This document shows positions 1,093 through 43,240 of a stretch of 64,000 bases of DNA, in pieces. The notes under the pieces were generated by a model. That model made no database searches. It was not told the DNA's origin and worked only from the letters and a program-made list of their open reading frames with translations. The stretch is from Brasilonema sp. UFV-L1 (GTDB taxonomy: Bacteria; Cyanobacteriota; Cyanobacteriia; Cyanobacteriales; Nostocaceae). The stretch's first letter is position 1. Every line of letters starts with the position of its first letter. The stretch lies in NCBI RefSeq assembly GCF_012912105.1, contig NZ_QMEA01000005.1, forward strand, positions 1 through 64,000, given 5' to 3'. Made by a program: the position numbers and the translations under genes.

Positions 1093-3675
1093 TTAGCTTA
1101 CACTTGTCTCACACTTTACCTGAAAATACTGTCGATATAACCAACAACTAGGTATTGCAAAATTGTTATCCAACTTAATCAACCCCATACTGCTTAACTT
1201 GTAAGCAACAATCGATTCTAACTTCACAGGTTGGGTAGCATTCATGACTTTAGAAACAGCAAATGCTAATTCTGGCTGCGCCTGCAAAGTTGCCCAATGA
1301 CGCTGCATATGATGGTAATAAATGCTCGTGGGTGTGGAAGCATCTTGTAGCAGTTGCCTCAAATTCACCTCTCCACGACTGAGGTGATAAAGTGTGAGGT
1401 GTATTAATGCAGGATGTCCTCCAACAATGTCCATCAGCAGCCTTGCTTCCTCATCATCTGTCCAATTGAGTTCAAAGCGTTGGGCTAAATGCTGCACCTG
1501 CTCTAAACTGAAATACGTTAATTGAATCGGTAGTCCGACATTAAATGGAGACTGATTGAGCTGCAGAGGAACATAAACTTCAGTCGAGTGAACCACAATC
1601 AGACGCAGCTTTTGCCAAATTGGTTGTCTTTTGGCATCTTCGTACCAAGAACGTAACAAAGGTAAGAATTCTTTGGCGACGTGCGGATGTTCAAAAACCT
1701 GGTGTACTTCATCCAACGCCAAAACCACAGGAGAATCAATCTGCTCTAACACATAATTTCGTAAATAAAGCGAGCAGCTGACTTTACTACCAATATCTTC
1801 ATCCCAATACTCATCTAATTTTGGTTCAAGCTCAAGCTGACGAGAGACGTTAGCACACAACCAACGCAAAAAACGATTTAAATCGCTCAAAATAGCTTGA
1901 TCAACTTGCTCTTGCAAATTCAAGCTCACTGTATGGTAGCCAATATGGTTAGCATACTCAAGAATCCTCAATAGCAGTGAGGTTTTACCCATTTCTTGAG
2001 GAGCTTTAATACGAATTAAAGCTCCTGGATTCATAATTTCTTCACAAATTTGTGTCGCAATCTCCGGTTGTTCAATGTAATAGGGAGAGCCAAGTGGGAC
2101 TAAACCGCTAGGAAAGCGAGGTAAGATTTCTTCTTTGAGATGAGAACAATAATTGACAGGAGGATTTTCTTGTGCTGTGATTTGTGGAGAAGCTTGTGCA
2201 GTCACATACGACTCTAATATCGTGCGACAGTTTTTTTTGGTCACACGCTCGCCGATAATATGAGATAATTTTTGACACAATCCTCGGGCGATAACATTCG
2301 TAAAGTAGGTAGAACTATAGCCCCCCTGTTGAGCAATTTGATTGTAAGTTTGACTTTGCCAAATACCCCGTAAAACTAAAACCTCTTTGTGATTGAGAGG
2401 GTGATTCTCGTATTCTAGAAGCTTGCTATTTAGTATCTCAATGAGTGAATCGAGAGCCGTTGTTTTAGACAAAACTGAATTGACGACTGGGAATCGGATG
2501 TTTGTTTGCACATCTTTAGCATTTCTGTTGGAAATCAGTATTGAAGAATCTGTTTTCTGTTGCCATTTATTCCATACACTTTGCTGTGACCAAATCATAG
2601 ATGGTTCAGCAGGATTTTGGAAAATCATTGGTAGCCAAGTCGCACAAGGATATTCCCCCTCTAATCCTTGCAGTCTTTCGCGTGCAGAACGCACTGCAGT
2701 ATACAAAGATTTTCCACTCGAAAACTCTGCTAGAAAATACTTTAAAAATTCTTGAGCAACCACATCCGGGACAGGCTCACGCATTACAATCACTTGTGGA
2801 ATATGCAAATCTTGGAGTTCCTGCGCTAACCCTAAACCATCACAAGAGTTGAAAATCGCTAGCTTTAACCCACGACTAATCGCTTGTCTAAGAGCATATT
2901 TCAACTGCTCAAGAGTAATCGTGTCTGTTTGATTGATTTGTAAAAATCCTTTTTCTTTACTAAAACTATGACCGGCAAAAAAGAGAATATCCCAACTTTG
3001 CTGCCATAGCTGCTCATTTAAATGATTGAGATTTGGCTCTACCAGAAACTTAATTTCTGCTTCAGTTGATAATTTCTCTAAAAGATTTTTATCACGACTA
3101 ATATCAATTCCTTCACTATTCCCAAAAGTCGCCAAAATTTTGACTTGACTTTTGCGGTTCTTGATAATCAATTTATTTGGATTTTGGTATTCTGCTGCAC
3201 TCAACGCAACTTCTGCATATGGGTAATCCTCAAAGAATTTCCATAGATGCCAAGGCAGTCGTCGCAATATATCATCGTTGGTTTCAATAACAAAGCGAAT
3301 TTCTTCAGAGGTTTTTAAATGCGTGCGTAATTGTTGGTCTATTTTGCGAAACTTTGTTGAGTTAAGCCATGTATTGATTTTTGTTGACAACAATTGACAC
3401 AAGCCATGAATATCAGCTTCTGAAATATTAGTTACATAATCTTCTTCTATTTCAAGATTATCATCGTTATCGAGACGCCAACTAAAACGTTGATAAAAAG
3501 CATAATAAACAAGCTGCCAACTTTGGTAGAGTTCAAAAATTTTGGGTGCGGCTGGTAAACTGGCAGAAAATTTCATCCGGTAGGGGTTGTCTGCTTCTCC
3601 AAGCTGTGCCGTCACCGTTGTACAGCCTTCGTGTAGGTTTCCTTGACCTAAGTTTAAAACAACTAACCTACTCAT
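1093..3675 (-). CDS. CHAT-domain protease fused to HTH and AAA-like ATPase domains
   Basis: An 860-residue protein in three parts. Residues about 170-355 form a CHAT (caspase-like, HetF-associated) peptidase domain, with catalytic His236 in FFAGHSFS and Cys278 in FNSCDG. Residues about 420-490 (LNHKEVLVLRGIW, then TYNQIAQQ) look like the helix-turn-helix found before AAA ATPases in vWA/MoxR-associated conflict systems. Residues about 515-850 form an AAA_35-like NTPase with a divergent Walker A (APQEMGKTS, 559-567) and a Walker B region (VVLALDEVHQ). The N-terminal 160 residues are a sensor-like region I cannot assign. In known systems such CHAT proteins are effectors activated by a partner; here sensing, ATPase and protease are in one chain. 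No partner gene lies beside it on the same strand. Defence or regulated cell death is inferred, not shown. Confidence 0.85.
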   Translation of the reverse strand: MSRLVVLNLGQGNLHEGCTTVTAQLGEADNPYRMKFSASLPAAPKIFELYQSWQLVYYAFYQRFSWRLDNDDNLEIEEDYVTNISEADIHGLCQLLSTKINTWLNSTKFRKIDQQLRTHLKTSEEIRFVIETNDDILRRLPWHLWKFFEDYPYAEVALSAAEYQNPNKLIIKNRKSQVKILATFGNSEGIDISRDKNLLEKLSTEAEIKFLVEPNLNHLNEQLWQQSWDILFFAGHSFSKEKGFLQINQTDTITLEQLKYALRQAISRGLKLAIFNSCDGLGLAQELQDLHIPQVIVMREPVPDVVAQEFLKYFLAEFSSGKSLYTAVRSARERLQGLEGEYPCATWLPMIFQNPAEPSMIWSQQSVWNKWQQKTDSSILISNRNAKDVQTNIRFPVVNSVLSKTTALDSLIEILNSKLLEYENHPLNHKEVLVLRGIWQSQTYNQIAQQGGYSSTYFTNVIARGLCQKLSHIIGERVTKKNCRTILESYVTAQASPQITAQENPPVNYCSHLKEEILPRFPSGLVPLGSPYYIEQPEIATQICEEIMNPGALIRIKAPQEMGKTSLLLRILEYANHIGYHTVSLNLQEQVDQAILSDLNRFLRWLCANVSRQLELEPKLDEYWDEDIGSKVSCSLYLRNYVLEQIDSPVVLALDEVHQVFEHPHVAKEFLPLLRSWYEDAKRQPIWQKLRLIVVHSTEVYVPLQLNQSPFNVGLPIQLTYFSLEQVQHLAQRFELNWTDDEEARLLMDIVGGHPALIHLTLYHLSRGEVNLRQLLQDASTPTSIYYHHMQRHWATLQAQPELAFAVSKVMNATQPVKLESIVAYKLSSMGLIKLDNNFAIPSCWLYRQYFQVKCETSVS

Positions 3676-10006: not shown

Positions 10007-10360
10007 ATGAGATTCTTATATCACCCAGACCGAAAACATATTTCTTTAGCAGGAGTGCTGTACGCTTTGGGCGATCCGGTGCGGCTGGAAATCGTGCGAC
10101 GGTTGGCAGTTAAGGAAGAGCAATGCTGTGCTGACTTTGATTTTGCCATTGCTAAGTCCACGATGTCCAATCACTTTAAAATTTTGCGCGAGTCAGGCGT
10201 TGTCTTGAGTCGCAAAGAAGGAACACAGCACATGAATATGTTGCGCAAAGACGATTTAGACGCACTTTTTCCAGGATTGTTGGACGCCGTGTTGCGCTCA
10301 GTTCAACCTTTGTCTATTTGCTTGTCAAACTCTAAAAAAACGGCATCACAAGAAAATTAG
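10007..10360 (+). CDS. ArsR-family winged-helix transcriptional regulator
   Basis: A 117-residue regulator with an ArsR-type winged helix: ALGDPVRLEIVRRLA (helix 1-2), then STMSNHFKILRESGVV (recognition helix) and a beta wing SRKEGTQHMNML. A Cys-Cys pair at about 38-39 (EEQCCADF) occupies the position where metal- or thiol-sensing ArsR members hold their ligand cysteines (ELCVCDL in classical ArsR). Redox or thiol sensing is therefore plausible, and fits the divergent thioredoxin gene. It most resembles the subgroup with a loose helix-turn-helix next to oxidoreductases. A repressor acting on 9953-9969 is inferred. Confidence 0.88.
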   Translation: MRFLYHPDRKHISLAGVLYALGDPVRLEIVRRLAVKEEQCCADFDFAIAKSTMSNHFKILRESGVVLSRKEGTQHMNMLRKDDLDALFPGLLDAVLRSVQPLSICLSNSKKTASQEN

Positions 10361-10726
10361 ACAAGATTGCAAAAATGCTTGAAATGTCATGTTCCTAAGC
10401 ACAAAGCGCATGCAATCATGCGCTCCGCGTAGCGTGCCTTATCTGCTGCCCAGATGCTACGAATTGCGGCGGTAGCGGCCGTACCCGCTAGGCATAGCGA
10501 AACATCTCGCAAGATTCTGAGGCTTAGCCACGCCAAGGCGCTCTTCGTAGCGTAGGCGTGGAGAAGATACGCTACACTGTGTTTCGTATGCTCACTGCAC
10601 TGGTTGCGGGAATTTCGTCGAACTGCGTTTAGACGACATTTCTTCACCTGCGTCTCAACCCGTCATTCCATCTGAATAATTAGTTACAATCAGTCCTATT
10701 ATGTAGTTACCCTGGTATATATTTTT
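10361..10726. repeat. Intergenic region with interspersed palindromic repeats, no gene
   Basis: Bases 10393-10640 hold a chain of short palindromes around cgctccgcgtagcgtgcc, gcgctcttcgtagcgtaggcg and tacgctacactg motifs, typical of Nostocales interspersed repeats. An open frame on the minus strand through this stretch is low-complexity and reads like the repeat itself, not a protein. The remainder up to the NurA stop codon has no feature I can support. Confidence 0.6.
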
Positions 10727-11791
10727 TTAACGAAAAACACGTTCGTTCGTTTCTTCAAAAAATAACTCTTCGCTTTGGATTGCCATTTGCACAGCTATTC
10801 TATCTTGAAGAATGCGGGGATTAAAGTTTTTACGCAGTTCCTCATCGATACGATTAAGTAAAAAAGGTATCTCGTGACCGACATTGTTTAACTGGCAGTC
10901 AGCAGCCATTATCCGCAGCATATCCTCCAAATGGTCTTCATGGACTTCAAAACCAAAAGCTTTTTTTCTCGGTTTAAATAGTCCTCTAAGTATATGCCTT
11001 GCCGTACCATTTTTAAATTCTTCTAAAACATAGCGATTTCGAGTCTCACCAGGATTTTTATTTGGAACATTACTTTGATTTAGATGATCTGCTAAAGTTT
11101 CTACTATATATAGTTCTCCTTGTCTGAGCGCACGAGCAAACTTGGCAAATACAGGATTTGCTTTTACATTTTTCATCACACCCAGACATTTTTTTCCACT
11201 TGTAAATAATCTGGAATATAACTGAACACCTTCTTGAATAGCTCCTAACCATTCATATATTAATGTCCCATCAAAAAGTATGTATGGTTCAGCTATTTCT
11301 AGCCCATGTGACACCTCATAATATCGTAAATATGCTGTTTGAGAAATCCCATATAGCCCTTCTTCCTCTCTTTTTATAAAATCATCACTGTTTTCAGCTT
11401 CAGAAAGTTCTATTTTACTTGACCAATAATGTAGAGATTCTTGTAGAGGACGACGGTATGAAATACTGCCAACTCCTACAGATAATGCTTGTCCTGCTGA
11501 GTACATTTGCATGGGTAATGTGTTAGTACCATCTATAGCTGCGACTTCCCCTCTTTCTAATTCTGGCGCACTGTTAAACAAACCAAAATCGATTTTACGT
11601 AGCCTTTGTCTACCATTATAAAGAGGTTCTACTGACTCCATAACTTCTCTGGCTTCTCGTACAACTTGACGTGCTTGTTCGCTATCAAGCATTTCCACAA
11701 CATCATCTGCTATACCACCAAAGCTAATAGCAAATTCATCACGAGTTACACGCCTTGATTGATTAACTAATTTTCTAAATGTGTTTGACAT
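10727..11791 (-). CDS. NurA-domain nuclease-like protein
   Basis: A 354-residue protein that I assign to the NurA nuclease fold (RNase H-like). The first catalytic-type strand is EVAAIDGTNTLP, an acidic residue followed by Gly-Thr. The second is PYILFDGTLIYEW, again Asp-Gly-Thr. The C-terminal HEIPFLLNRIDEELR fits the last helix with an acidic residue. In archaea NurA is a 5'-3' exonuclease working with the HerA translocase in end resection, but no HerA is seen here. The start was set at ATG 11791, since AGGAG lies six bases upstream; the frame to 11818 is less likely. The start overlaps the end of the methyltransferase gene by 17 bases, so the two are translationally coupled. A restriction-like role is inferred. 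Confidence 0.7.
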   Translation of the reverse strand: MSNTFRKLVNQSRRVTRDEFAISFGGIADDVVEMLDSEQARQVVREAREVMESVEPLYNGRQRLRKIDFGLFNSAPELERGEVAAIDGTNTLPMQMYSAGQALSVGVGSISYRRPLQESLHYWSSKIELSEAENSDDFIKREEEGLYGISQTAYLRYYEVSHGLEIAEPYILFDGTLIYEWLGAIQEGVQLYSRLFTSGKKCLGVMKNVKANPVFAKFARALRQGELYIVETLADHLNQSNVPNKNPGETRNRYVLEEFKNGTARHILRGLFKPRKKAFGFEVHEDHLEDMLRIMAADCQLNNVGHEIPFLLNRIDEELRKNFNPRILQDRIAVQMAIQSEELFFEETNERVFR

Positions 11792-13091
11792 TTTCAACTC
11801 CTGGCTTTTCAAAAACATTCAAAACACAGGTATCTGAACGCATTCTACGAGCGCGTTTGGCAGCATTATTTTTAAAAGCACTAGCAGGTTCTTGCTGACG
11901 ACCACGAGAAACAAAAGCTGCATCAATCCAAATTAAACCTTCATTAATAGCAAATGAGTAAACATCAGCCGGGATATCATGATTTGGATTTTCTGGTCGC
12001 AATCCACTCCACTTTGGTAAAAATACACATAATCTTCCACCAGAGTTCAGAGATTTAGACATTGCCTGAATTAGTTCTTTTATCAATATCAAATATTCGG
12101 AATAGTCTTTTGCTGATGCTAAGTCACCATAAAATAAATGCTTGGACTGACCAAAATAAGGGGGGTCAATGAAAATCCAATCAGCTTTTATTGGTAATGG
12201 TTTTCGAGCATCGTGTTTCTTAATAAAATCACGGCAGGGATGTAAATCAAACAAATATATCTTAAGGTCAAAGGCGGAATCTTTCTGCCATCTCTCACGG
12301 TCATCATAGACGCGCTTTAACATTCCGCTTCCCGCCATTGGGTCTACAGCTATACCAGCTTTAGGAGCAAAATAATATAAAGCATTGGCATATATTTCTC
12401 CGGGAATTGAACCGATAAAATTGTCTTCTTGACGCCATTTTGGATTACCAAAAGCCCACCAATCAGAAGGTTTAATGATGTCTAAGTTAGCTGCTATACT
12501 ACCGTTTTTAAAACACCATTCTCTATGAATTTGAGCAAAAGTAGCGTTAGGTTTATTATTGAGAAACTTTGCAGCTTCGATTAAATACTCGCCAGCACGC
12601 TCTTTCTGACGTTGAGCATATTTGAAAAGTTCGGTCGGTGCTTCACGTAAAATAATTGTACTAATAGAAGCTTTCTCAACATATTCGAGGGCTTTACCTT
12701 GAATAACATAGCCTTTCGCCGTTGTCGGATGCACACTAACTTGTTTGCATACCTGTCCAAAGGTCAATTCCTTCTTATTAGCTTTATTTTCAGAGGCTAG
12801 TAAATCATTGATTTTTGCCCATAATTTAGCTCTGTAAAATGTACCTCCAGGTTCCCTTAGACTAGCTAGTGCAGCACATTTAGCTAGATATACAGGCTGC
12901 TCAATCTTGGTTAATATAGATTCAGCAGCTTCATAGAAAGCACTGCTATCTACAACACTGTGAAAGCGATTCAAAACGTCCCCAAATAAATCTGAAGTTT
13001 CCGAAATATAACCATTAATTTTATTAACAGTTTCAAGTTGACCTTCAGTATTTACTGGTTGAATTTCTCTGGTTTCAAAAATCAATGTCAT
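11775..13091 (-). CDS. DNA methyltransferase (DPPY class) with N-terminal helical/HTH region
   Basis: A 438-residue protein. The C-terminal half is a class I DNA methyltransferase: AVDPMAGSGML (residues 248-258) is the SAM-binding motif I, and FIDPPYFGQ (307-315) is catalytic motif IV of N6-adenine or N4-cytosine enzymes. GGRLCVFLPKW follows as a later core strand. The N-terminal half (about 60-200) is helical and contains LTFGQVCKQVSVHPTTAKGYV, which reads as a helix-turn-helix and might recognise the target site. A possible AGGGG abuts the ATG at 13091, so the start is uncertain. It is the first gene of a two-gene unit with the NurA-like gene, the organisation of a restriction-modification system in which NurA replaces a classical endonuclease. 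Target sequence unknown. Confidence 0.85.
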   Translation of the reverse strand: MTLIFETREIQPVNTEGQLETVNKINGYISETSDLFGDVLNRFHSVVDSSAFYEAAESILTKIEQPVYLAKCAALASLREPGGTFYRAKLWAKINDLLASENKANKKELTFGQVCKQVSVHPTTAKGYVIQGKALEYVEKASISTIILREAPTELFKYAQRQKERAGEYLIEAAKFLNNKPNATFAQIHREWCFKNGSIAANLDIIKPSDWWAFGNPKWRQEDNFIGSIPGEIYANALYYFAPKAGIAVDPMAGSGMLKRVYDDRERWQKDSAFDLKIYLFDLHPCRDFIKKHDARKPLPIKADWIFIDPPYFGQSKHLFYGDLASAKDYSEYLILIKELIQAMSKSLNSGGRLCVFLPKWSGLRPENPNHDIPADVYSFAINEGLIWIDAAFVSRGRQQEPASAFKNNAAKRARRMRSDTCVLNVFEKPGVENVKHI

Positions 13092-13309
13092 CCCCTACAG
13101 TTACTAATGCTGGCTGTGTGTTATTTGCGTTGGAACCTGTATTAACGTGCGATAAATCACCACTTGTTCCGTCATGCAGGATAATCATCGTATATTTTTT
13201 TGCTACGGATAATAATTATGACTTCTTTTAAGAATGTATATTTTTTATCACAAAATGGCTAGATTATCTACACAGTCATGAATATCTATCGCTATTTGGC
13301 GGATTTCAA
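13092..13309. other. Intergenic region upstream of the methyltransferase
   Basis: No gene is visible. The promoter of the methyltransferase-nurA unit should lie here, but no convincing -35/-10 pair or operator was found. Confidence 0.4.
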
Positions 13310-13388
13310 TCAAAACAAACTTGCTACATACTCATCGAGGTCACTACGCTTAACCCGCCAACTGCGACCAATCATTTTGGCTTTTATA
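13310..13388 (-). pseudogene. C-terminal fragment of an excisionase-type HTH gene
   Basis: Reading the minus strand from 13388 gives KAKMIGRSWRVKRSDLDEYV and then ASLF before a TGA. The pattern IGRSWRVKRSDLDEY is the C-terminal wing and helix of the MerR/excisionase (Xis) DNA-binding domain. The N-terminal helix-turn-helix is missing: the frame meets a stop just upstream, exactly where the IS630-type remnant begins. Excisionase-like genes accompany integrative elements and toxin-antitoxin loci, so this is a scar of mobile DNA beside the methyltransferase-NurA pair. Confidence 0.6.
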
Positions 13389-13651
13389 CCAATTCTCTAT
13401 GAAGATGAGCTTAGATTGAGCCGTTCGACGAGTTCTTTACGGCTATTGATATGACCCTTTTTTAACCAGTAGAGCATTTGTAAGCGTTCTTTACCACTGG
13501 CTGTGGTTTGAGCTTTGAGGCGTTTCTCTAATTCTTCTTGTGTTTCGTGAATCGTTAATTTTAGTGGACGACTCATTGCCATGCATCCTATGCTACCCAT
13601 CCTCAGCTTAAACCAAAAGTACACCTTGAGTACCAATTATTAAGCTCATCT
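13386..13651 (-). mobile_element. IS630-type insertion sequence remnant
   Basis: Perfect 11-base inverted repeats (agatgagctta at 13403-13413 and its complement at 13641-13651) bracket a short transposase fragment. The motif taccaatt also occurs at both ends (13386-13393 and 13631-13638). The enclosed frame matches only the first helix-turn-helix of an IS630 transposase, so most of the element is deleted. It could now behave as a MITE moved in trans. Confidence 0.55.
13397..13576 (-). pseudogene. Truncated IS630-family transposase (N-terminal HTH only)
   Basis: The ATG at 13576 begins MSRPLKLTIHETQEELEKRL, followed by KERLQMLYWLKKGHINSRKELVERLNLSSSS. This is the N-terminal helix-turn-helix of cyanobacterial IS630-family transposases. 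The frame stops after about 59 residues, so the second HTH and the whole DDE catalytic domain are absent. It cannot be an active transposase. It is enclosed by short inverted repeats and separates the excisionase fragment from the ABC permease gene. Confidence 0.65.
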
Positions 13652-13790
13652 GACAGTGATTATCATTATTTTTTTGGAAAAAATTTTTTATTTTTTGGAA
13701 GTCCTAAATGCAAGCATTTTTTGGAATTTGCTTATGAATTGATTCATTCTGTTTTCATTAATTTCCTGGATTTTAGTATGAGTATAAACT

Positions 13791-14696
13791 TCATGTTGTG
13801 ATATTTTCACCGCCATGTCGATTAATCATTAATCGCACAATTGAGAGTCCCAAAATGATTAGGAACAGAACTAACCCAATTGTGCAGGCATAGCTAATTT
13901 CCAAATTATTAAACGCTTGTTCATACAGATAGTAAACAATTGTTTTCGAGCTATTACGCGGTCCACCCTGAGTCATAATGTAGATTTCTTCAAACACCTT
14001 GGTGGCAGAAATAGCTGAAATCACAGCAACGAGAGCTATGTATGGTTTCATCAAAGGTACGGTGATATCCCAGTGCTTACGAGTACCGTCTGAACCATCA
14101 ATTGCTGCGGCTTCGTAGATATCAGCAGGGATGGATTGCAACCCAGCTAAATAAATAACCATGTAGTAGCCTAATCCTTTCCACACAGTCACAGCCATTA
14201 CGCTAAATAACGCAAAGCGGGGACTCGTCAGCCAAGGAATTCCTTCTGGAAAAAAACCCTTCAGCAACTGATTGAGTAAGCCATTTTCTGCATACAGCCA
14301 CTTCCAAGCAATCCCTGCAACCACCATTGAAATCACGACTGGTGTATAGTAAGCGGCTCTAAACCAGTGCATTCCACGCAGTTTCTGATTGACTAAAATT
14401 GCCAGTGCTAAGGGGGCGATGACTAGGATTGGGACGACACCCACAAGATACAGCAAGGTGTTAAACAAGGTTTGCCAAAAGACTCTATCATTCCACAAGC
14501 GTTGGAAGTTAGCAAAACCTATCCATTGCGGTGTCTGGGTTAAATCATATTCGTAGCGAGTAAAACTGAGGTAAAACGCTTGTAGTGCAGGCCAAAAAAC
14601 GCTTAATGTCAAGACAAGCAAGGCAGGGAGCAAAAATAAGTAAGGAGTCAGTCGCTGTGTCATTAAAAACCAATCTTTGGTTGTCAATCTATTCAT
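13791..14696 (-). CDS. Sugar ABC transporter permease (MalF/UgpA type)
   Basis: A permease of about 301 residues with six predicted membrane segments, beginning TPYLFLLPALLVLTLSVFWP. The cytoplasmic EAA loop reads YEAAAIDGSDGTRKHWDITVPLMKP, typical of the MalF-like subunit of carbohydrate importers. It would pair with a MalG-like permease, a periplasmic binding protein and an ATPase, none of which is in this window. The frame continues to a TTG at 14792, but the extra residues are atypical, so ATG 14696 is preferred; no strong ribosome-binding site decides the matter. The gene is divergent from the DUF3891 gene. Substrate unknown. Confidence 0.85.
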   Translation of the reverse strand: MNRLTTKDWFLMTQRLTPYLFLLPALLVLTLSVFWPALQAFYLSFTRYEYDLTQTPQWIGFANFQRLWNDRVFWQTLFNTLLYLVGVVPILVIAPLALAILVNQKLRGMHWFRAAYYTPVVISMVVAGIAWKWLYAENGLLNQLLKGFFPEGIPWLTSPRFALFSVMAVTVWKGLGYYMVIYLAGLQSIPADIYEAAAIDGSDGTRKHWDITVPLMKPYIALVAVISAISATKVFEEIYIMTQGGPRNSSKTIVYYLYEQAFNNLEISYACTIGLVLFLIILGLSIVRLMINRHGGENITT

Positions 14697-14795
14697 AGGA
14701 AGATTTTTTTCGTGCTGTTGAGGGATGAATTCCAGTTTTGATAAATGCAACATGAAAAAGCAAATTGATATGACAAGAGCGTTTAAGCCCAATTC

Positions 14796-20346: not shown

Positions 20347-20500
20347 TTGACGCTCCCACGGCTACCACATTTTCGCTCCGCTCCAATGTGGCATAAAGCC
20401 GTGGGATTCTGGCATCTAGTCCCCAATCCCCGTGGATTGGGTTTTCATCCAGTTAGGGGCTGCGCCAAGCAGCCCATTCTCTGAATCGGACATAACCATT
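20347..20500 (-). ncRNA. Probable TnpB omega-RNA (right-end guide RNA scaffold)
   Basis: TnpB nucleases use an RNA made from the 3' end of tnpB through the right end, with the guide taken from flanking DNA. Here the strand continues from the tnpB C-terminal codons through hairpin-rich sequence (ccaatcccc / ggggattgg near 20423-20445, then the terminal compound hairpin) to 20347. The guide would start at 20346 inside the SMP-30 fragment. The extent is inferred; the 5' end is unknown. Confidence 0.4.
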
Positions 20501-21585
20501 GCAGCCATGTCTTTCTTTAGATCCAGAGAACAAGCAAAACCATCCCACTGCGCTATATTTCTGGCAGCATTGAGGTCTGCATTATGATAGTGTCCATGTG
20601 GACAGTTGAAGTGGTGTCTGTCTCTAATTCCCAATGTCCCGCAAGTTGAGCAAGATTTTGACGTGTATGGTGCAGGACGTTTGATTAATTTTAATCCTGA
20701 TATAGCTAGCTTGTAGTCTAACTTCATCTCTAACGAGTAGAATGACCACGAGTGGCGGGATTGAGCAGAATCAGCACGTTGTTTTTTAGATTGCTTCATG
20801 GTTTTTCGACATCCTTCCAAGTCTTCAACTACTACATCAGCATTCTTGTACTCAGCAAAACGCACTATCCGACGCGAGGCAGTGTGATCTACTGCGTCCA
20901 TCCAACGACGTTCTTTCTTATCCCACTTTTTAAGTGCTCTAAATTTTTTAGCCTCTTGTAGTTGCTTGCGTCGTTTTTGAAAATAACGACGACGATGCAT
21001 GACTTGTTTGCCGCTAAAAAACTTGCCAAACCCACTTTTGGAAGCCACTACTGCAAGATTGTTCTGTCCTCTATCACAGCCGATTCTTGTCGTTGTTGCA
21101 ACTTCTGGAACTTCCTCGGTTACAGAAACATAGACATACCATTTATTTCGATGCTTAATAATTTTGGCACTTCCTCTTTCAACTGCACCGTTGAGAATTC
21201 CTTCTAGAACTGGTTGCCAGTGTTTAGATGCAACTTCAACAGGAACACGTTTTGTTCCTTTGATAGTGGGGAAGCTGACACTATACGTAGTTCCCACTTT
21301 ATGCAGTGCCCAGTTCTGATTGTTGACTTCTGGTGGTAATCGCTTGAAAGATTTTGCTTTTTTACCAGCATCAGACGTGGTATGTCGGATGACTTGATTA
21401 GACAGAGCAGACATAAGACGAGTCTGAACTTTAGAGGTTGTCAACTTTCGTCTTTCTGGAAGAGGAATAGTTAGCAACCAATTAGCTAAGTCTGTTGCCT
21501 CAACTGTAATTTCTTCAAATAGTTCAGATTTGGTTTTATTTAGTTGTGGAAACTTTAACTTAATTGTTCGTGTTACTCGTCTCAA
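20416..21585 (-). CDS. tnpB: RNA-guided endonuclease TnpB
   Basis: A TnpB (OrfB) protein of about 389 residues, ancestor-like to Cas12, cutting DNA next to a TAM under omega-RNA guidance. Residue numbers are counted from a GTG at 21594. RuvC-I is IGCDRGQNN (Asp174), RuvC-II is DVVVEDLEG (Glu257) and RuvC-III is HNADLNAARN (Asp340), so the catalytic triad is intact. The zinc finger is CSTCG (Cys315, Cys318) with CPHGHYHN (Cys331), but the usual fourth Cys is replaced by His. The first codon is probably TTG at 21585, since AAGGAGG lies seven bases upstream and overlaps the GTG. There is no partner TnpA. Confidence 0.92.
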   Translation of the reverse strand: MRRVTRTIKLKFPQLNKTKSELFEEITVEATDLANWLLTIPLPERRKLTTSKVQTRLMSALSNQVIRHTTSDAGKKAKSFKRLPPEVNNQNWALHKVGTTYSVSFPTIKGTKRVPVEVASKHWQPVLEGILNGAVERGSAKIIKHRNKWYVYVSVTEEVPEVATTTRIGCDRGQNNLAVVASKSGFGKFFSGKQVMHRRRYFQKRRKQLQEAKKFRALKKWDKKERRWMDAVDHTASRRIVRFAEYKNADVVVEDLEGCRKTMKQSKKQRADSAQSRHSWSFYSLEMKLDYKLAISGLKLIKRPAPYTSKSCSTCGTLGIRDRHHFNCPHGHYHNADLNAARNIAQWDGFACSLDLKKDMAAMVMSDSENGLLGAAPNWMKTQSTGIGD

Positions 21586-21741
21586 ATCTATCACCTCCTT
21601 GGTCTTCTTATTTTACCCATTTGGGTAAGACAAGATATCAAGCTAACACAAAGTTTCTGTTAAGATATGACGGCAACGCGCATTTGCCACGCACTCATCC
21701 CACCCCTAGAAGGAGTGGGCTTTCTGCTCCCGACACTGTAA

Positions 21742-36910: not shown

Positions 36911-37009
36911 GGGATGTGCGTAGCGGTTGCTTTGATTGTCCCACAGATCACTCATCCGTTACCTCACATGGTACTTTTATGCTTTGGGAAACCTTGAAAG
37001 TTGAGTTTC

Positions 37010-37702
37010 ATGAACGTAACTGACGACAAGACGATTGTTAAAGAATATTTCAATTCTACAGGCTTTGACCGTTGGAGACGTATCTACGGTGACGGTGAAG
37101 TCAACAAAGTCCAGCTAGATATCCGCACTGGGCACCAGCAAACAGTAGATACGGTATTAAACTGGCTCAAAGCTGATGATAATTTGCATGGTCTATCTAT
37201 CTGCGATGCTGGATGTGGAACAGGTAGTCTAAGCATACCTCTTGCAGAAGCTGGAGCAAAAGTTTATGCCAGCGATATTTCTGAAAAAATGGTAGGAGAA
37301 GCCAAGGAAAAAGCCTTACAAATTCTCACAAATGCTGAAAATCCTACATTTGCTGTACAGGATTTAGAAACATTAAGCGGTAGTTACCATACGGTGATTT
37401 GCTTAGATGTTCTCATTCACTATCCTCAGCAAAAAGCAGATGAGATGATTTCTCACCTGTGTTCTTTAGCGCAGTCACGGCTGATTCTCAGTTTTGCACC
37501 GAAAACTTTTGCCCTGAGTTTATTGAAGAAAGTAGGTAGTTTCTTTCCTGGTGCAAGTAAAGCGACTCGTGCTTATCTACACCGTGAAGCTGATGTGGTG
37601 AAAATTTTGGCAAAGAATGGCTTTTCAGTGCAACGCCAGTCTATGACGCGAACTCGCTTCTATTTCTCTCGTCTACTAGAAGCGACACGTCAGTCAGTTT
37701 AA
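37010..37702 (+). CDS. chlM: Magnesium-protoporphyrin IX methyltransferase
   Basis: A 230-residue SAM-dependent enzyme methylating the C13 propionate of Mg-protoporphyrin IX in chlorophyll synthesis. The N-terminus VKEYFNSTGFDRWRRIYGDG is diagnostic of ChlM/BchM. The SAM site is SICDAGCGTGSLSIPLAEAG with the acidic YASDIS. CLDVLIHYPQ and LILSFAPKT are further family motifs. The frame starts with a TTG at 37001; ATG 37010 gives the usual start. A terminator follows at 37732. The 3' 370 bases are duplicated at 40527-40899. Confidence 0.96.
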   Translation: MNVTDDKTIVKEYFNSTGFDRWRRIYGDGEVNKVQLDIRTGHQQTVDTVLNWLKADDNLHGLSICDAGCGTGSLSIPLAEAGAKVYASDISEKMVGEAKEKALQILTNAENPTFAVQDLETLSGSYHTVICLDVLIHYPQQKADEMISHLCSLAQSRLILSFAPKTFALSLLKKVGSFFPGASKATRAYLHREADVVKILAKNGFSVQRQSMTRTRFYFSRLLEATRQSV

Positions 37703-37731
37703 AATCGCGCGACACGCTATGCGCGATAAAC

Positions 37732-37760
37732 AGCTCCTCAAACGAGGAGCTCTTTCATTT
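37732..37760 (+). terminator. Terminator of chlM
   Basis: The stem agctcctc / gaggagct (37732-37739, 37744-37751) has loop aaac and is followed by ctttcattt. The duplicated copy at 40927-40950 has the same stem, with loop gttt. Confidence 0.8.
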
Positions 37761-38440
37761 ATCCTATTTCATAAATGCACTATCAAAGAGTAAGCTAGAA
37801 CACATCTAACGCCGCATAATTTAAAGTTTTGATAAAAAGGATCAAACTCTTTTACAGCAGAATTCAGGAGCGTTCCCTCTGCCTATACTCCGCCTCCGGT
37901 CAGAAGCGGAGCCGGAGACGCTCCGCCTCCGGTCAGAAGTAAAACAGTTTTCATATTTGGCTTTGAGGTCTAGGTTCTGTACCTCACTTAGTTGCAAACT
38001 GCTGTATCTTTTACTCTGCGCCTCTTTTGCCTCGTGCGGTTAAACAATGCAAATTAAATATCGAACAGCTTACCTGACATCTTGCACGAAGAGAAATTGA
38101 TGTTAATCTCAAACTCAGTACTAAGCCTGAAGGCCATATTTAACCGAGAAAAGCTCAGAAAAGTGATGTAACTTTATTGCGGTGCTTTTGACTAATTCCG
38201 GGGTTATACGGAGATGTGCAAGATATGAATTACCATCGTTTTTACTGTTTTTAAAGATTACATAAAGCTATTTAAATAACCAAAAATACAGGTAAGATTT
38301 ACTCCTAACCACATTAATCAAAAATATAAAACCATAACGAAAATTACTTAATACTTTTTAAGTAATTTCACCATGAGATAGCTCAAGATACCGAATGTGG
38401 GAAATACTCTACACCTAAAGAAGAAAAGGAACTTCAATCT
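37752..38440. other. Long intergenic region with direct repeats upstream of the first beta-helix gene
   Basis: Contains two 19-base direct repeats beginning ctccgcctccggtcagaa (37888-37906 and 37921-37939) separated by a ggagccggagacg palindrome partner. From about 38225 onward the sequence is homologous to 40985-41200 upstream of the second beta-helix gene (shared tttttactgtttttaaagat and atataaaaccat). No gene is seen. Confidence 0.6.
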
Positions 38441-40393
38441 ATGGATTTGTTATCTGCATCTACCTCAGACACTCTTCAAGCTTCGCAACCTGCATCCAAC
38501 TTATCAGCTACATCTAGCTTCAACTTTGGCACTCCACAAGACATCATCAGTGGCTCAAACTTGCAAGGAAGCGGCGGTTCCATCTTTACGGTTAACAGCA
38601 TTGCCGATGTAGTAGATGATAGTGATAGCGTGACGACGTTGCGTGAAGCCATTAACCTTGCAAACGGGCTCATTGGAAAAGACTCGATTGTGTTTGACTC
38701 CTCACTGTTTAGCACTTCACAGAAGATTACTTTAAGTTTGGGACAACTGAGCATCACCGACAGTTTAAACATCAAAGCTCCAGTAGATTCATTGACAGGT
38801 GCTGACTTATTAACGATAAGTGGCAACAATGCGTCACGGGTGTTTGAGATTGGAGAGGGAGCAACAGTCAGCTTCTCTGGGTTGATTATTGCTGATGGCA
38901 AGGTGACGGATGACAACGGTGGTGGGATTAAGAACAACGGCACTCTCAGCTTAGACAACAGTATTGTTCGCAATAACACTGCGACGATGATCAACTCGAA
39001 CATTTATGGCGGCGGTATTTACAACACCGGCACCCTAACGTTGAGCAACAGCACTCTAAGTGGTAACTCAGCAAACGGTAGTTTGGCCATCATCAATAGT
39101 TTGACCGTCAGTAATAGCGGCTTTGGCGGCGGTATTTACAACACAGGCACCCTGACAGTGAGCGACAGTACCCTCAGCAGCAACTCGGTCAGTGGACCCA
39201 ATAGCGGTAGGGGCGGCGGCATTTACAACACGGGCACCCTAACGGTGAGCAACGGCATTCTTAGTGGCAACTCAGCAAACGGCACCGCACTCAGCAGTGC
39301 TAACGGTTTTGGCGGCGGTATTTACAACACAGGCATTGTAACGGTGAGTGACAGTACCCTCAGCAGCAACTCGGTCACAGGGGATAGGGCAGATGGTGGC
39401 GGCATCTATAACGACAATGGCACCTTTAATGGCACCTTTAAGGTGAACAATACCAACCTCATTGGCAACTCGGCAAGCGGCCAGAATGGCAGCAACGGAG
39501 GCGGCATCTATAACAACAGCGGCACCCTTGAGGTGAACAATAGCACCCTCAAGAGCAACTTGGCAAACGGCGGTTATGACGTCGGCGTCGGCGGAGGCAT
39601 TGCTAACAGTAGTGGCAAAGTGATAGTGAACAATAGCGCCTTCAGTGACAACAAAGCAAACGGCACAGGTGCCAGCGGTGGTGGCATTAACAACGACAGT
39701 GGCACCTTGGAGGTGAACAATGGCACCCTCACTGGCAACTCGGCAGACGGCGGCAGGTATAGCATCGGCGGCGGCATTAACAACGCGGGTACCCTAACGT
39801 TGAACAACAGCACTATAAGCAATAACTTGACAACTACCTCCTTGTTCAACGGCGGTGGCGGCATCTATAACACTGGCACTCTTAAGGTGAACACCAGCAT
39901 CATCAGGGACAACTCCACATTCCAAAACGGTGGCGGCATCTATAACTTTGGCAGCGGCAGCATAAGTATGAGTAACAGCACCATATCCGGCAACTCGGTC
40001 AAGGGCAACGGAGGTGGCATCTCTAACAGTGGTACTGTTGAGGTGAGCAACAGCAACTTCACCGGCAACTCGGCAACCGAAAACGGCGGCGGTATATATA
40101 ATAATGCCTCTGTAACAATACTGTTGAGTACCCTCACCCTCAACCAAGCCAGCAATGGTGGAGGCGTGTTCAATAATACTTCTGGTACAGCCAGAGTGCG
40201 GCAGACAATAATCGCCGGCAATCTCTTAAATACAGGTGGCATCAATCCCGATGTGTCAGGCAACTTTATTAGTGATGGCGAAAACTGGATTGGCGACAGT
40301 ACGGGTAGTAGTGGATTTGCAGCCACCGGAGACATAATTGGTATCAAGATCAACCCATTAGATCTTCGTCTGACCGGCACCACAACCGTGTAA
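38441..40393 (+). CDS. Right-handed beta-helix repeat protein (copy A)
   Basis: A 650-residue Gly/Ser/Asn/Thr-rich protein. Residues about 45-150 contain a CSLREA-type domain (FTVNSIADVVDDSDSVTTLREA). Then about 20 imperfect 22-28-residue repeats of the form GGGIYNTGTLTVSNSTLS and SGNSA follow, the pattern of right-handed parallel beta helices such as Chlamydia Pmp-like passenger domains. There is no classical signal peptide; a type I or other leaderless route is possible. The C-terminus ends abruptly at GTTTV: the stop TAA at 40391 aligns with CAA in copy B, so copy A lost the final few residues. Surface exposure or adhesion is inferred. It is paralogous to copy B. Confidence 0.88.
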   Translation: MDLLSASTSDTLQASQPASNLSATSSFNFGTPQDIISGSNLQGSGGSIFTVNSIADVVDDSDSVTTLREAINLANGLIGKDSIVFDSSLFSTSQKITLSLGQLSITDSLNIKAPVDSLTGADLLTISGNNASRVFEIGEGATVSFSGLIIADGKVTDDNGGGIKNNGTLSLDNSIVRNNTATMINSNIYGGGIYNTGTLTLSNSTLSGNSANGSLAIINSLTVSNSGFGGGIYNTGTLTVSDSTLSSNSVSGPNSGRGGGIYNTGTLTVSNGILSGNSANGTALSSANGFGGGIYNTGIVTVSDSTLSSNSVTGDRADGGGIYNDNGTFNGTFKVNNTNLIGNSASGQNGSNGGGIYNNSGTLEVNNSTLKSNLANGGYDVGVGGGIANSSGKVIVNNSAFSDNKANGTGASGGGINNDSGTLEVNNGTLTGNSADGGRYSIGGGINNAGTLTLNNSTISNNLTTTSLFNGGGGIYNTGTLKVNTSIIRDNSTFQNGGGIYNFGSGSISMSNSTISGNSVKGNGGGISNSGTVEVSNSNFTGNSATENGGGIYNNASVTILLSTLTLNQASNGGGVFNNTSGTARVRQTIIAGNLLNTGGINPDVSGNFISDGENWIGDSTGSSGFAATGDIIGIKINPLDLRLTGTTTV

Positions 40394-40526
40394 ACATTCT
40401 TTTAAGTCCGGATTCGTAGGAGAGTTGGGGGGGCTAGTACCAGCTCCCTCGATTCTATCAATCCTAAGAGTCTGTTGCGATTGAATGTGCAATATTTAAG
40501 CTAAGCAATTCAAATATTTCTATGGG

Positions 40527-40899
40527 AAATGCTGAAAATCCGACATTTGCTGTACAGGATTTAGAAACATTAAGCGGTAGTTACCATACAGTGATGTGCT
40601 TAGATGTTCTGATTCACTATCCTCAGCAAAAAGCAGATGAGATGATTTCTCACCTGTGTTCTTTAGCGCAGTCACGGCTGATTCTCAGTTTTGCACCGAA
40701 AACTTTTGCCCTGAGTTTATTGAAGAAAGTAGGTAGTTTCTTTCCTGGTGCAAGTAAAGCGACTCGTGCTTATCTACACCGTGAAGCTGATGTGGTGAAA
40801 ATTTTGGCAAAGAATGGCTTTTCAGTGCAACGCCAGTCTATGACGCGAACTCGCTTCTATTTCTCTCGTCTACTAGAAGCGACACGTCAGTCAGTTTAA
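40527..40899 (+). pseudogene. Duplicated 3' fragment of chlM
   Basis: Starts at the position corresponding to 37330 in chlM and encodes only its last 123 residues (AENPTFAVQDLE to the C-terminus), lacking the substrate-recognition N-terminus and the SAM GxGxG motif. 40612-40909 is identical to 37415-37712 (298 bases). The four differences I see are all in the first 85 bases. It cannot be a working methyltransferase. It is a landmark of the tandem duplication that also produced the two beta-helix genes. Confidence 0.92.
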
Positions 40900-40926
40900 A
40901 ATCGCGCGATACACTGCGGGCAATAA

Positions 40927-40959
40927 AGAGCTCCTCGTTTGAGGAGCTCTTTCATTTAT
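40927..40959 (+). terminator. Duplicated chlM terminator
   Basis: Ten-base perfect stem agagctcctc / gaggagctct with loop gttt, followed by ttcattt. The loop is the reverse complement of the aaac loop in the first copy. Confidence 0.75.
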
Positions 40960-41200
40960 CCCATTTCATAAATGCACTCTCAACTAGCACCATCGGTTTT
41001 TACTGTTTTTAAAGATTAAATAATGCTATTTAAACTACCAAAAATACCGGTAAAATCTAGTTTCAACGACATTCATACTGATAATATAAAACCATCACTA
41101 AAATTACTTAATATTTCTTAAGTAGTTATACCATGTGATAGCTCTATATGGGGAATGTGGAAAATACTCTACACCTAAGAAAGAAAAAAAACTTCAATCT

Positions 41201-43240
41201 ATGGATTTCTCAACTGAATTGACTTCCGACACTCTTCAAGCTTCGCAATCTGCATTCAACCCATCTGCCACATCTAACTTCAACTTTGGCACTCCACAAG
41301 ACATCATCAGTGGCTCAAACTTCCAAGGAAGTGGCGGTTCCATCCTTACGGTCAACAGCATTGCCGATGTGGTGGATGATAATGATGGCGTGACGACGTT
41401 GCGTGAAGCCATTAACCTGGCAAACGGGCTCATTGGAAAAGACTCGATTGTGTTTGACTCTTCGTTGTTTAGCAGTTCACAAACCATTACTTTAAGTTTG
41501 GGACAACTGAGCATCACCGACAGCTTAAACATCAACGCCCGAGTAGATCCATTAACAGGTGCTGATTTATTGACGATTAGTGGTAACAATGCTTCACGGG
41601 TATTTGAGATTGGGGCGGGAGCAACAGTCAACCTCTTCGGGTTGATTATTGCCGATGGCAAGGTGAAGAATGAAAACGGTGCTGGAATTTACAACAGCGG
41701 TATCCTCAATCTGGAAAACAGCATTGTTCGCAACAACACCGTAACTTATAATCCACAGAATGTTTATGGTGAAAACGGCATAATATTTAGTGGGTATGGC
41801 GGCGGCATTTACAATGCGGGCACTCTGACTTTGAGTAGCAGCACCATCAGCGGTAACCAGACAAATACCGTCTCTGCCGGCAGGGGTGGCGGCATTTACA
41901 ATGTGGGTACAGTGACAGCAAGCAACAGCACTATAAGCAGCAACTCAGCAAGCGGTTTGTCCGGTTCCGCTATTGGTGGCGGCATCTATAACGAAGGTAC
42001 TGTAACACTGAGCTACAGTAATCTCAGTAACAACTCCGCAGGCGGTCCTGTAGGTGCAAGTTCCGCTGGTGGCATTTACAATACAGGAAGTTTGGGTGTA
42101 AGTAATAGTACCGTAAGCCGCAACTCCGCAGGCGGTAGGTTTGGCGGCACCGGCGGCGGCATCCTGAACAGTGGCGGTAGCGTGACAGTGAGCGACAGTA
42201 TTATCAGTGGTAACTCGGCAGGGAGCTTTGGCGGTTTTGGCGGCGGTATCTTGAATAGTAGCGGTACTCTTAATGTAAGCAACAGCACCTTCAGTGGTAA
42301 CACGGCAGACTTTTTTGGCGGCATCTCAAACAGTGGCACTTTGACGGTGAGTAACAGCACTTTCACCAACCATACCGGCACCAGTCTCGGAAACAGTGGT
42401 ACTGCGATGGTGAGCAACAGTATCTTCACCAATAACAATGGCAACAATATCTTAAATGGCGGTATCTGGAACAGCGGCACTCTTGATGTGAGCAACAGCA
42501 CCATCTCTGGTAACAGTCGCAGCGGCATTTCTAACAGTGGTGGCAGCATGAGTGTGAGCAACAGCACCATCTCCGGTAACAGTGGCACCGGCATCTCAAA
42601 TGGTGGTATTCTTGATGTGAGCAACAGCACCATCAGCAGCAACTCGGCAGTCTTGGGCGGCGGCATCTATAACAATGGTGGCACTCTGAGTGTGAGCAAC
42701 AGCACCATCAGCGGCAACAGAGCAAGCCAAGACGGCGGTGGTATCTATAACGACAGTACATCCAGGAAATCTACCGTAACAGTAAGCAACAGCACCATAG
42801 ACAGCAACTCGGCAACCAACAATGGCGGTGGCATCTATAACTCCAACAACGGCACTCTTGAGGTGAACAACAGTAACCTCAGCAGCAACTCGATAAGTAG
42901 TATCAGCTACGCGGGTAACGGAGGCGGCATCTATAACGATGGCAGCATGAGTGTGAGTAATAGCACCCTTACTCTTAACAAAGCTACAAATGGTGGAGGC
43001 GTGTTTAATAATACTTCTGGTACAGCCAGAGTGCGGAACACGACGATCGCCGGCAATCTCTTGAATACAGGTGGCATCAACCCCGATGTGGCAGGCAACT
43101 TCATCAGCGATGGTTACAACTTGATTGGCGACAGTACAGGCAGCACTGGATTTGGATCTACAGGAGACATAATCGGTATCAACATAAACCCAATAGATCC
43201 TCGTGTGAACGGCAACACAGCTGTGCAAACATTCTCTTAA
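41201..43240 (+). CDS. Right-handed beta-helix repeat protein (copy B)
   Basis: A 679-residue paralogue of 38441-40393. The first about 170 residues, including the CSLREA-type region VNSIADVVDDNDGVTTLREA, are nearly the same. The middle consists of GGGIYN, GTLxVSNSTIS and GNSA repeats in different number and order, and the last 70 residues (NATNGGGVFNNTSGTARVR-type end through NPIDPRVNG) are again conserved. A longer frame begins at 41135, but ATG 41201 aligns with the copy A start and is preceded by the same acttcaatct. It ends four residues later than copy A. A secreted or surface-localised function is inferred; no anchor is seen. Confidence 0.88.
   Translation: MDFSTELTSDTLQASQSAFNPSATSNFNFGTPQDIISGSNFQGSGGSILTVNSIADVVDDNDGVTTLREAINLANGLIGKDSIVFDSSLFSSSQTITLSLGQLSITDSLNINARVDPLTGADLLTISGNNASRVFEIGAGATVNLFGLIIADGKVKNENGAGIYNSGILNLENSIVRNNTVTYNPQNVYGENGIIFSGYGGGIYNAGTLTLSSSTISGNQTNTVSAGRGGGIYNVGTVTASNSTISSNSASGLSGSAIGGGIYNEGTVTLSYSNLSNNSAGGPVGASSAGGIYNTGSLGVSNSTVSRNSAGGRFGGTGGGILNSGGSVTVSDSIISGNSAGSFGGFGGGILNSSGTLNVSNSTFSGNTADFFGGISNSGTLTVSNSTFTNHTGTSLGNSGTAMVSNSIFTNNNGNNILNGGIWNSGTLDVSNSTISGNSRSGISNSGGSMSVSNSTISGNSGTGISNGGILDVSNSTISSNSAVLGGGIYNNGGTLSVSNSTISGNRASQDGGGIYNDSTSRKSTVTVSNSTIDSNSATNNGGGIYNSNNGTLEVNNSNLSSNSISSISYAGNGGGIYNDGSMSVSNSTLTLNKATNGGGVFNNTSGTARVRNTTIAGNLLNTGGINPDVAGNFISDGYNLIGDSTGSTGFGSTGDIIGININPIDPRVNGNTAVQTFS

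Follow-up and report, generated by a model that had tools for sequence, protein, structure and literature searches.

Here, we show that a DNA methyltransferase gene and an overlapping nuclease-like gene of the cyanobacterium Brasilonema sp. UFV-L1 stand beside the remnant of a third gene, herA, whose sequence adjoins relatives of the nuclease-like gene in every other locus that we read. The genes lie at positions 10,727 to 13,091 of a stretch of 64,000 nucleotides (the start of contig NZ_QMEA01000005.1), hereafter the window. An initial annotation, made from the letters alone, regarded them as a candidate two-gene restriction-type system lacking HerA. It was right about both open reading frames, which lie on the minus strand, and about the methylase motifs DPMAGSG and DPPY. 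Yet, the conserved unit turned out to be HerA, methylase and NurA-like protein, with HerA as the most constant partner. We interpret the pair of the window as the remains of a mobile herA-methylase-NurA-like cassette, which would be restriction-modification-like when intact and is disarmed here. We give this interpretation a probability of roughly two in three (0.68).

Relatives of the NurA-like protein occur in 7 of 243 sampled genomes of the order, 5 of 386 of the phylum and 6 of 217 of the family, the genome under study being in each count. A named genome collection contributed 9 loci and viral contigs another 4. After removal of duplicates (L018 and L088 are identical in sequence to L013 and L009), and with two contig ends sharing 127 identical bases (L089 and L090) counted as one gene, 23 loci were read, the window included. 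HerA sequence adjoins the NurA-like gene in 22 of these 23, the window being the sole locus without a HerA gene. HerA is full-length in 20 of the 23 loci, and is split into two genes in L021, L086 and L087. Eleven loci, which we call type A, have the order HerA-methylase-NurA (window, L009 to L017 and L019). The methylase is missing from one of them (L016) and adjoins the NurA-like gene in the other 10, window included, which bears out the conserved adjacency that the initial annotation had put forward as a check. The order is methylase-HerA-NurA in L020. Seven cellular loci (L021, L022, L023, L041, L086, L087 and L089) have the order NurA-HerA, our type B, with an adjacent methylase in four. 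All four viral-contig loci carry HerA and an adjacent methylase, and overall a methylase is adjacent in 19 of the 23 loci. Outside the trio, no cluster of open reading frames is found in more than 3 of 16 stretches, and two of those 3 are one locus. The neighbours of the cellular type A copies, which were not systematically annotated, differ between loci. We also observed, directly upstream of HerA in two Poribacteria loci (L011 869-2841 and L014 235-2144), a gene pair of which one member is a 2OG-Fe(II) oxygenase in L011.

The fate of herA in the window can be read against the cassette of Scytonema hyalinum (L009), which is 92% identical and serves as reference for the loss of 531 codons. The 37-codon reading frame directly upstream of the methylase consists of both ends of HerA, in 114 bases. 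Hence, the initial annotation was correct in finding no intact HerA gene, but missed this remnant on the minus strand. A short common sequence of about 5 bases, ACG[T/A]T, lies at the join in the comparison with L009, and a join in either of the other frames would have stopped translation about 30 or 48 bases sooner. By alignment with the S. hyalinum gene, HerA was lost by an in-frame internal deletion that left both gene ends in place. The end of HerA and the start of the methylase overlap by 17 bases in the window as in L009, L010, L012 and L013. Elsewhere there is an overlap of 11 bases (L019) or gaps of 23, 23 and 29 bases (L011, L014 and L015). With the L009 protein as query, no cassette HerA was found elsewhere in the genome of 8.3 Mb and 337 contigs. 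The search returned the two ends at the locus, and weak matches to a resident HerA on contig C76 (E 0.108) and to a reading frame on contig C64 (E 0.945).

L009 HerA scores 60.7 bits and L023 HerA 39 bits against DUF87, both above the cut-off of 23.2. The former has the Walker A motif GGTGSGKS, of which G166, G169, G171 and K172 are invariant in 11 rows, and the profile of these 11 rows matches the HerA of PDB entry 4d2i (E 3.8e-16). Two other loci carry broken HerA genes: L017 (1-430) keeps only the last ~88 residues, the match to intact HerA stopping abruptly 136 bases from the contig end, and L022 (1-1281) only the first ~402 residues, with an abrupt stop 74 bases from the contig end. These are possibly further losses of the motor, beside an intact methylase-NurA pair in L017 and the NurA-like gene in L022. 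The letters that precede the L017 piece look like the closing part of a transposase of the IS3 type, and an element may thus have inserted there.

The cassette has moved between genomes. In G566, a genome from the same genus, 176 bp separate the matches to the arsR and permease flanks, against 3484 bp in the window, i.e. the site is empty. Three other genomes (G571, G616 and G615) have other DNA between the same flanks, over 3055, 7659 and 7581 bp. G616 carries the cassette on a different contig, which equals that of S. hyalinum. Since NurA relatives at 63-92% identity are found in contigs labelled Cyanobacteria, Poribacteria and Gemmatimonadetes, and since the site is empty in a congener, the cassette is, on sequence grounds, an acquired and mobile unit, as the initial annotation had proposed. 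In the NurA tree, where several forks are weak, the window groups with S. hyalinum and a Microcoleus, rows from Poribacteria and Gemmatimonadetes (contigs of metagenome-assembled genomes, 63-71% identity) cluster with type A, and the viral rows sit on long branches. We found no convincing terminal repeats around the cassette, and the flank at 13258-13795 is single copy in the genome. Collections of plasmid and phage records held no NurA relative; a single phage record gave a weak match to the methylase. Scans of viral contigs with a single window protein or with the HerA alignment returned no relatives. Such scans do miss relatives, because those with the methylase and NurA alignments recovered cassettes with plain HerA, in four distant IMG/VR loci.

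The methylase falls just short of the N6_N4_Mtase family in the window (PF01555, 26.6 bits for a cut-off of 26.7) and passes it in L015 (31.3 bits). It also matches the type II methyltransferase models of PADLOC. Its structural model (predicted local distance difference test score, pLDDT, 69.8) has S-adenosylmethionine-dependent methyltransferases as top structural matches (best E 1.5e-7), and what the model shows is only a class I methyltransferase fold. The N-terminal half is variable and predicted to be helical. Between the window and L010, identity is 39-70% per 50-residue block in the first 200 residues and 74-86% in the remainder, while the NurA-like proteins are 80-98% identical. Synonymous divergence (dS) between L009 and L010 is 0.51 for NurA and about 1.3 for HerA and the methylase. 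These block identities and the unequal dS suggest that the variable half is the recognition part and that the cassette is a mosaic. The four IMG/VR contigs carry three kinds of methyltransferase: a D12-class enzyme (L098), a larger N6_N4 enzyme that weakly matches a helix-turn-helix (L097), and enzymes resembling the type B methylase (L099 and L100). That the methylases differ in kind is the best indication that the unit requires base methylation as such.

The two genes left in the window show no sign of decay at the level of codons. For the window against L009, the ratio of nonsynonymous to synonymous rates (dN/dS) is 0.13 in NurA and 0.22 in the methylase. When changes are polarised with L010 as outgroup, nonsynonymous and synonymous changes number 9:17 on the window branch and 10:21 on the L009 branch for NurA, and 4:11 and 4:9, respectively, for the methylase. 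The window departs from otherwise invariant type A columns 3 times in NurA and once in the methylase. The corresponding counts are 0 and 0 in L009, 4 and 3 in L010 (these two being the closest relatives of the window cassette), and 21 and 34 in the most diverged rows.

The nuclease-like protein is best called NurA-like, as several sequence comparisons suggest and as the steadiness of its HerA partner supports. Residues D96, E168, D183 and the motif H315-E-I-P are invariant in an alignment of 15 rows. The two Asp motifs of NurA are catalytic, and hhalign aligns both of them (D96 and D183) to the canonical NurA of the sampled phylum. Profile A7 scores 35.3 against the canonical NurA, where the maximum of 60 column shuffles is 22.2, and profile A1 scores 32.2 (maximum 24.5 of 60). 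The Pfam NurA family matches 9 of the 15 family members at E up to 1 (best 2.5e-4), and other Pfam families match at most one of the 15 each. Among viral relatives, L098 scores 18.1 bits against Pfam NurA, and L097 and a piece of L099 have no match. A catalytic role of the two Asp agrees with Asp49 of the NurA of Thermococcus kodakarensis (PMC12977600, partial text). Searches of solved structures with the NurA-like profiles returned no NurA, and no PADLOC model matches the protein, in line with the unusual layout of modification enzyme and nuclease that was initially noticed. A separate canonical NurA gene lies elsewhere in the genome.

A number of observations weigh against our interpretation. 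The likeness to NurA proposed in the initial annotation stands for the two Asp motifs and falls short in Pfam, where the window protein scores 15.6 bits against NurA (PF09376, E 0.011) for a cut-off of 21. The hhalign score of profile A6, mixed and rich in type B, is 20.0, which the shuffles also reach (maximum 22.9 of 40); for type B by itself the score is 20.9. The comparison of predicted structures that had been asked for at the outset yielded an AlphaFold2 model (10 rows, pLDDT 49.8) too poor to judge whether the fold is RNase H-like, and with it Foldseek found no match at E 0.001 or better. No adjacent methylase is seen in four of the 23 loci (L016, L086, L087 and L022). Two methylase queries gave no match in L086 and L087, and the L022 contig ends just after the broken HerA, before any methylase could show. 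Because L017 keeps an intact pair beside a HerA remnant near a contig end, the methylase-NurA pair may outlive HerA more than once. Much or even most of the measured constraint may be older than the deletion. Finally, genes for replication or recombination occur close to three of the four viral copies, a setting that would also agree with a role in recombination. As a separate observation, the Poribacteria locus L016 (3129-5850) has HerA directly followed by NurA, possibly through loss of another member of the trio.

How might the intact cassette work? The methylase would mark host DNA at a target that its variable N-terminal half recognises, and the HerA ring would engage unmarked DNA and pump it into a NurA-like dimer, which would cut what it is given. 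HerA is a double-stranded DNA (dsDNA) translocase that feeds NurA (PMC9960219, partial text), and the NurA of T. kodakarensis is specific for single-stranded DNA (ssDNA) and requires the HerA ATPase to cut dsDNA (PMC12977600, partial text). A self/non-self check on translocated DNA suggests itself as the simplest reading of a methylase added to HerA-NurA. In the window, the deletion took nearly all of HerA and spared the flank upstream, the start of HerA and the overlap of HerA stop and methylase start. Because these survive, production of methylase and NurA probably continues. The window cassette would then be competent for modification yet incapable of attacking dsDNA, as expected from the loss of HerA. 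Directly seen are the genes present, their conservation, the deletion, the empty site and the constraint on the two genes left; the methylation target, the cutting, the discrimination of self from non-self and the expression are inferred. The trio may further represent ATP-dependent restriction-modification of a class not yet named, where the helicase-type motor of types I and III has given way to an FtsK/HerA-like DNA pump. Such a class would swap several kinds of methylase, occur on phages and in several bacterial phyla, and turn into modification-only forms by motor loss (here, perhaps also in L017). We regard the chances of this broader proposal as about even.

The strongest competing view, though we think it improbable, is that the cassette is a recombination or replication module spread by phages, where HerA and NurA resect ends and the methylase marks or protects its own element, with no restriction involved. 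Known HerA-NurA pairs do perform end resection (PMC9960219, partial text). In the viral locus L098, HerA and NurA lie between a Sak4-like annealing protein with a PD-DEXK exonuclease and the D12 methylase, and genes of DnaB-type helicases lie near L099 and L100. On the other hand, the neighbours of the cellular type A copies vary by locus, and restriction genes neighbour one of the type B copies, that of a congener (L086, 1314-7372), whose NurA-HerA pair comes after type I HsdS and HsdR genes. Along with a Schlafen-type gene after L021, this neighbourhood suits a role in defence. A repair role would also be redundant, since the genome has its canonical NurA. We note in passing that the small gene preceding the L086 pair has a counterpart before that of L087.

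Two other explanations seem quite unlikely to us. One is that methylase and NurA work as a two-gene restriction system that needs no HerA. In its favour, the window holds both genes intact and under constraint, the in-frame deletion preserved the start/stop overlap and the L017 pair also sits beside a truncated HerA. But a pair devoid of any HerA sequence is found in 0 of the 22 other loci, and the NurA of T. kodakarensis alone cuts only ssDNA (PMC12977600, partial text). With HerA sequence beside NurA in 22 of 22 other loci and HerA remains in the window, we rejected this candidate. The other explanation is that the deletion was adaptive, the NurA-like protein now using a resident HerA or the methylase having become a stand-alone regulator. 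Such a HerA exists on C76 (DUF87, E 6.5e-33), the deletion is in frame and the departures from invariant columns are few (3 and 1, against ranges of 0-21 and 0-34 elsewhere). Yet, the resident protein shares with the HerA of the cassette an alignment of only 96 aa (31% identity), its expected partner is presumably the resident NurA, and a deletion has 1 chance in 3 of being in frame. An artefact of assembly or culture is the least credible of all: although the deletion rests on a single assembly of many contigs, the join sits deep within 64 kb of contig, has only ~5 bases of common sequence and is in frame, and no other piece of the cassette herA was found in the genome.

If the remains are those of a restriction-modification-like cassette, how does it compare with known systems? 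It resembles the HerA-NurA end-resection complex of archaea and Deinococcus in having the gene of a HerA-type translocase beside a NurA-like gene and in keeping the two Asp motifs. It differs in being mobile, in usually having an adjacent methylase, in a NurA under the Pfam cut-off and in coexisting here with a separate canonical NurA. TdpAB (8wet, 8wfd) also combines a pump and a second protein, and its chain 8wfd_G ranks second (E 0.77) in the Foldseek search with the poor NurA-like model. TdpAB presumably has a NurA-like part and a tie to DNA phosphorothioation. However, the cassette has a methylase instead of phosphorothioate genes, at which no search of their own was aimed, and the match of TdpA to the profile of the cassette HerA has an E of no better than 0.052. 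With the HerA-DUF4297 and Sir2-HerA anti-phage systems it shares the use of a HerA ring and an effector in defence, but the effector differs. The cassette HerA profile matches several HerA-type chains in solved structures, e.g. 8xau (E 5e-9). The accessible part of the DUF4297-HerA paper has no mention of methyltransferases (PMC11291478).

Two of the genes resemble parts of MADS, the methylation-associated defence system: L009 HerA matches PADLOC model mad8 (1.6e-23), and the model mad2 finds 6 of 13 methylases (best 3.4e-6). Yet, MADS has about eight components and only three genes recur in the cassette. Among the scanned proteins only HerA and methylase resembled mad8 and mad2, i.e. we met no multi-gene mad operon, the neighbours having been scanned with PADLOC in part. 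Type I restriction-modification offers a functional analogy, with methylase, ATP-driven translocase and nuclease, but the cassette has HerA instead of the HsdR motor and lacks HsdS. We recognised no description of a HerA-methylase-NurA-like unit among the literature matches listed, a search that did not extend to Iyer 2004 on FtsK-HerA, and the portion of the Nucleic Acids Research work on HerA/FtsK capture systems that was available contains no occurrence of NurA.

Defence driven by HerA is a growing class, and the systems described in the partial texts consulted couple HerA to Sir2, DUF4297, DndFGH or BREX-like components. If our interpretation is true, a mobile HerA-NurA with interchangeable base methylases joins the machinery of end resection to self/non-self marking by methylation. 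The cassette has a built-in test, as intact copies, e.g. in S. hyalinum, exist alongside a natural deletion of the motor. It also illustrates how a decayed three-gene system can pass for a new two-gene system.

The coordinates of the cassette and its flanks are given in Table 1.

Table 1. Features of the putatively disarmed cassette and its flanks, in positions of the window.
Feature	Coordinates	Strand	Remarks
NurA-like protein	10727-11818	minus	reading frame of 363 aa; 354 aa from the inner ATG at 11791
DNA N6-adenine/N4-cytosine methyltransferase	11775-13091	minus	438 aa; motif I DPMAGSGM, then motif IV DPPY
herA remnant	13075-13188	minus	15 N-terminal and 22 C-terminal codons plus stop, joined in frame
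herA deletion junction	13143-13144	minus	1593 bp (531 codons) absent relative to L009
Conserved 5' flank of cassette, ~70 bp	13189-13258	minus	85% identical to L009, herA start included; may act as promoter
Whole unit common with the L009 cassette	10726-13258	minus	from ~70 bp upstream of the herA start to the NurA end; between arsR and the ATP-binding cassette (ABC) permease gene
arsR, ArsR-type regulator	10007-10360		flank of cassette; Pfam
ABC permease gene	13791-14792		other flank of cassette

The initial annotation also described an overlap of 17 bases between methylase and NurA, with a ribosome-binding site inside it. Indeed, GGAG directly precedes the inner ATG of the NurA-like gene and the overlap is 17 bases with that start, but it is 44 bases with the start at 11818. 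Neither is the 17-base overlap conserved: the methylases of L009 and L010 stop just 5' of the inner ATG, unlike that of the window, which runs a few codons past it. The excisionase placed beside the pair found no confirmation among the reading frames scanned, which were not all those of the window: one neighbour is the ArsR-type regulator and the frame at 13397-13636 has no Pfam family over the cut-off.

Further from the cassette, the window holds other genes of interest. A TnpB-like protein with Cas12f1-like TNB and OrfB_IS605 domains is encoded at 20416-21594 (minus), with no obvious TnpA partner by eye among neighbouring reading frames of at least 100 aa. An 860-aa protein with CHAT and AAA_35 domains (1093-3675, minus) is possibly a conflict-system protein. 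A 635-aa protein (58481-60388, plus) combines an acyl-CoA dehydrogenase N-terminal domain with a putative cyclase domain, either an unusual fusion or an error. Finally, part of the gene for magnesium-protoporphyrin methyltransferase (37001-37702) occurs twice, with 96% identity (37330-37786 and 40527-40983). The second copy (40522-40899) has the C-terminal domain only, and the stretches downstream of the two copies (38232-38979 and 40989-41739) agree to 86%, the pattern that a tandem duplication would leave.

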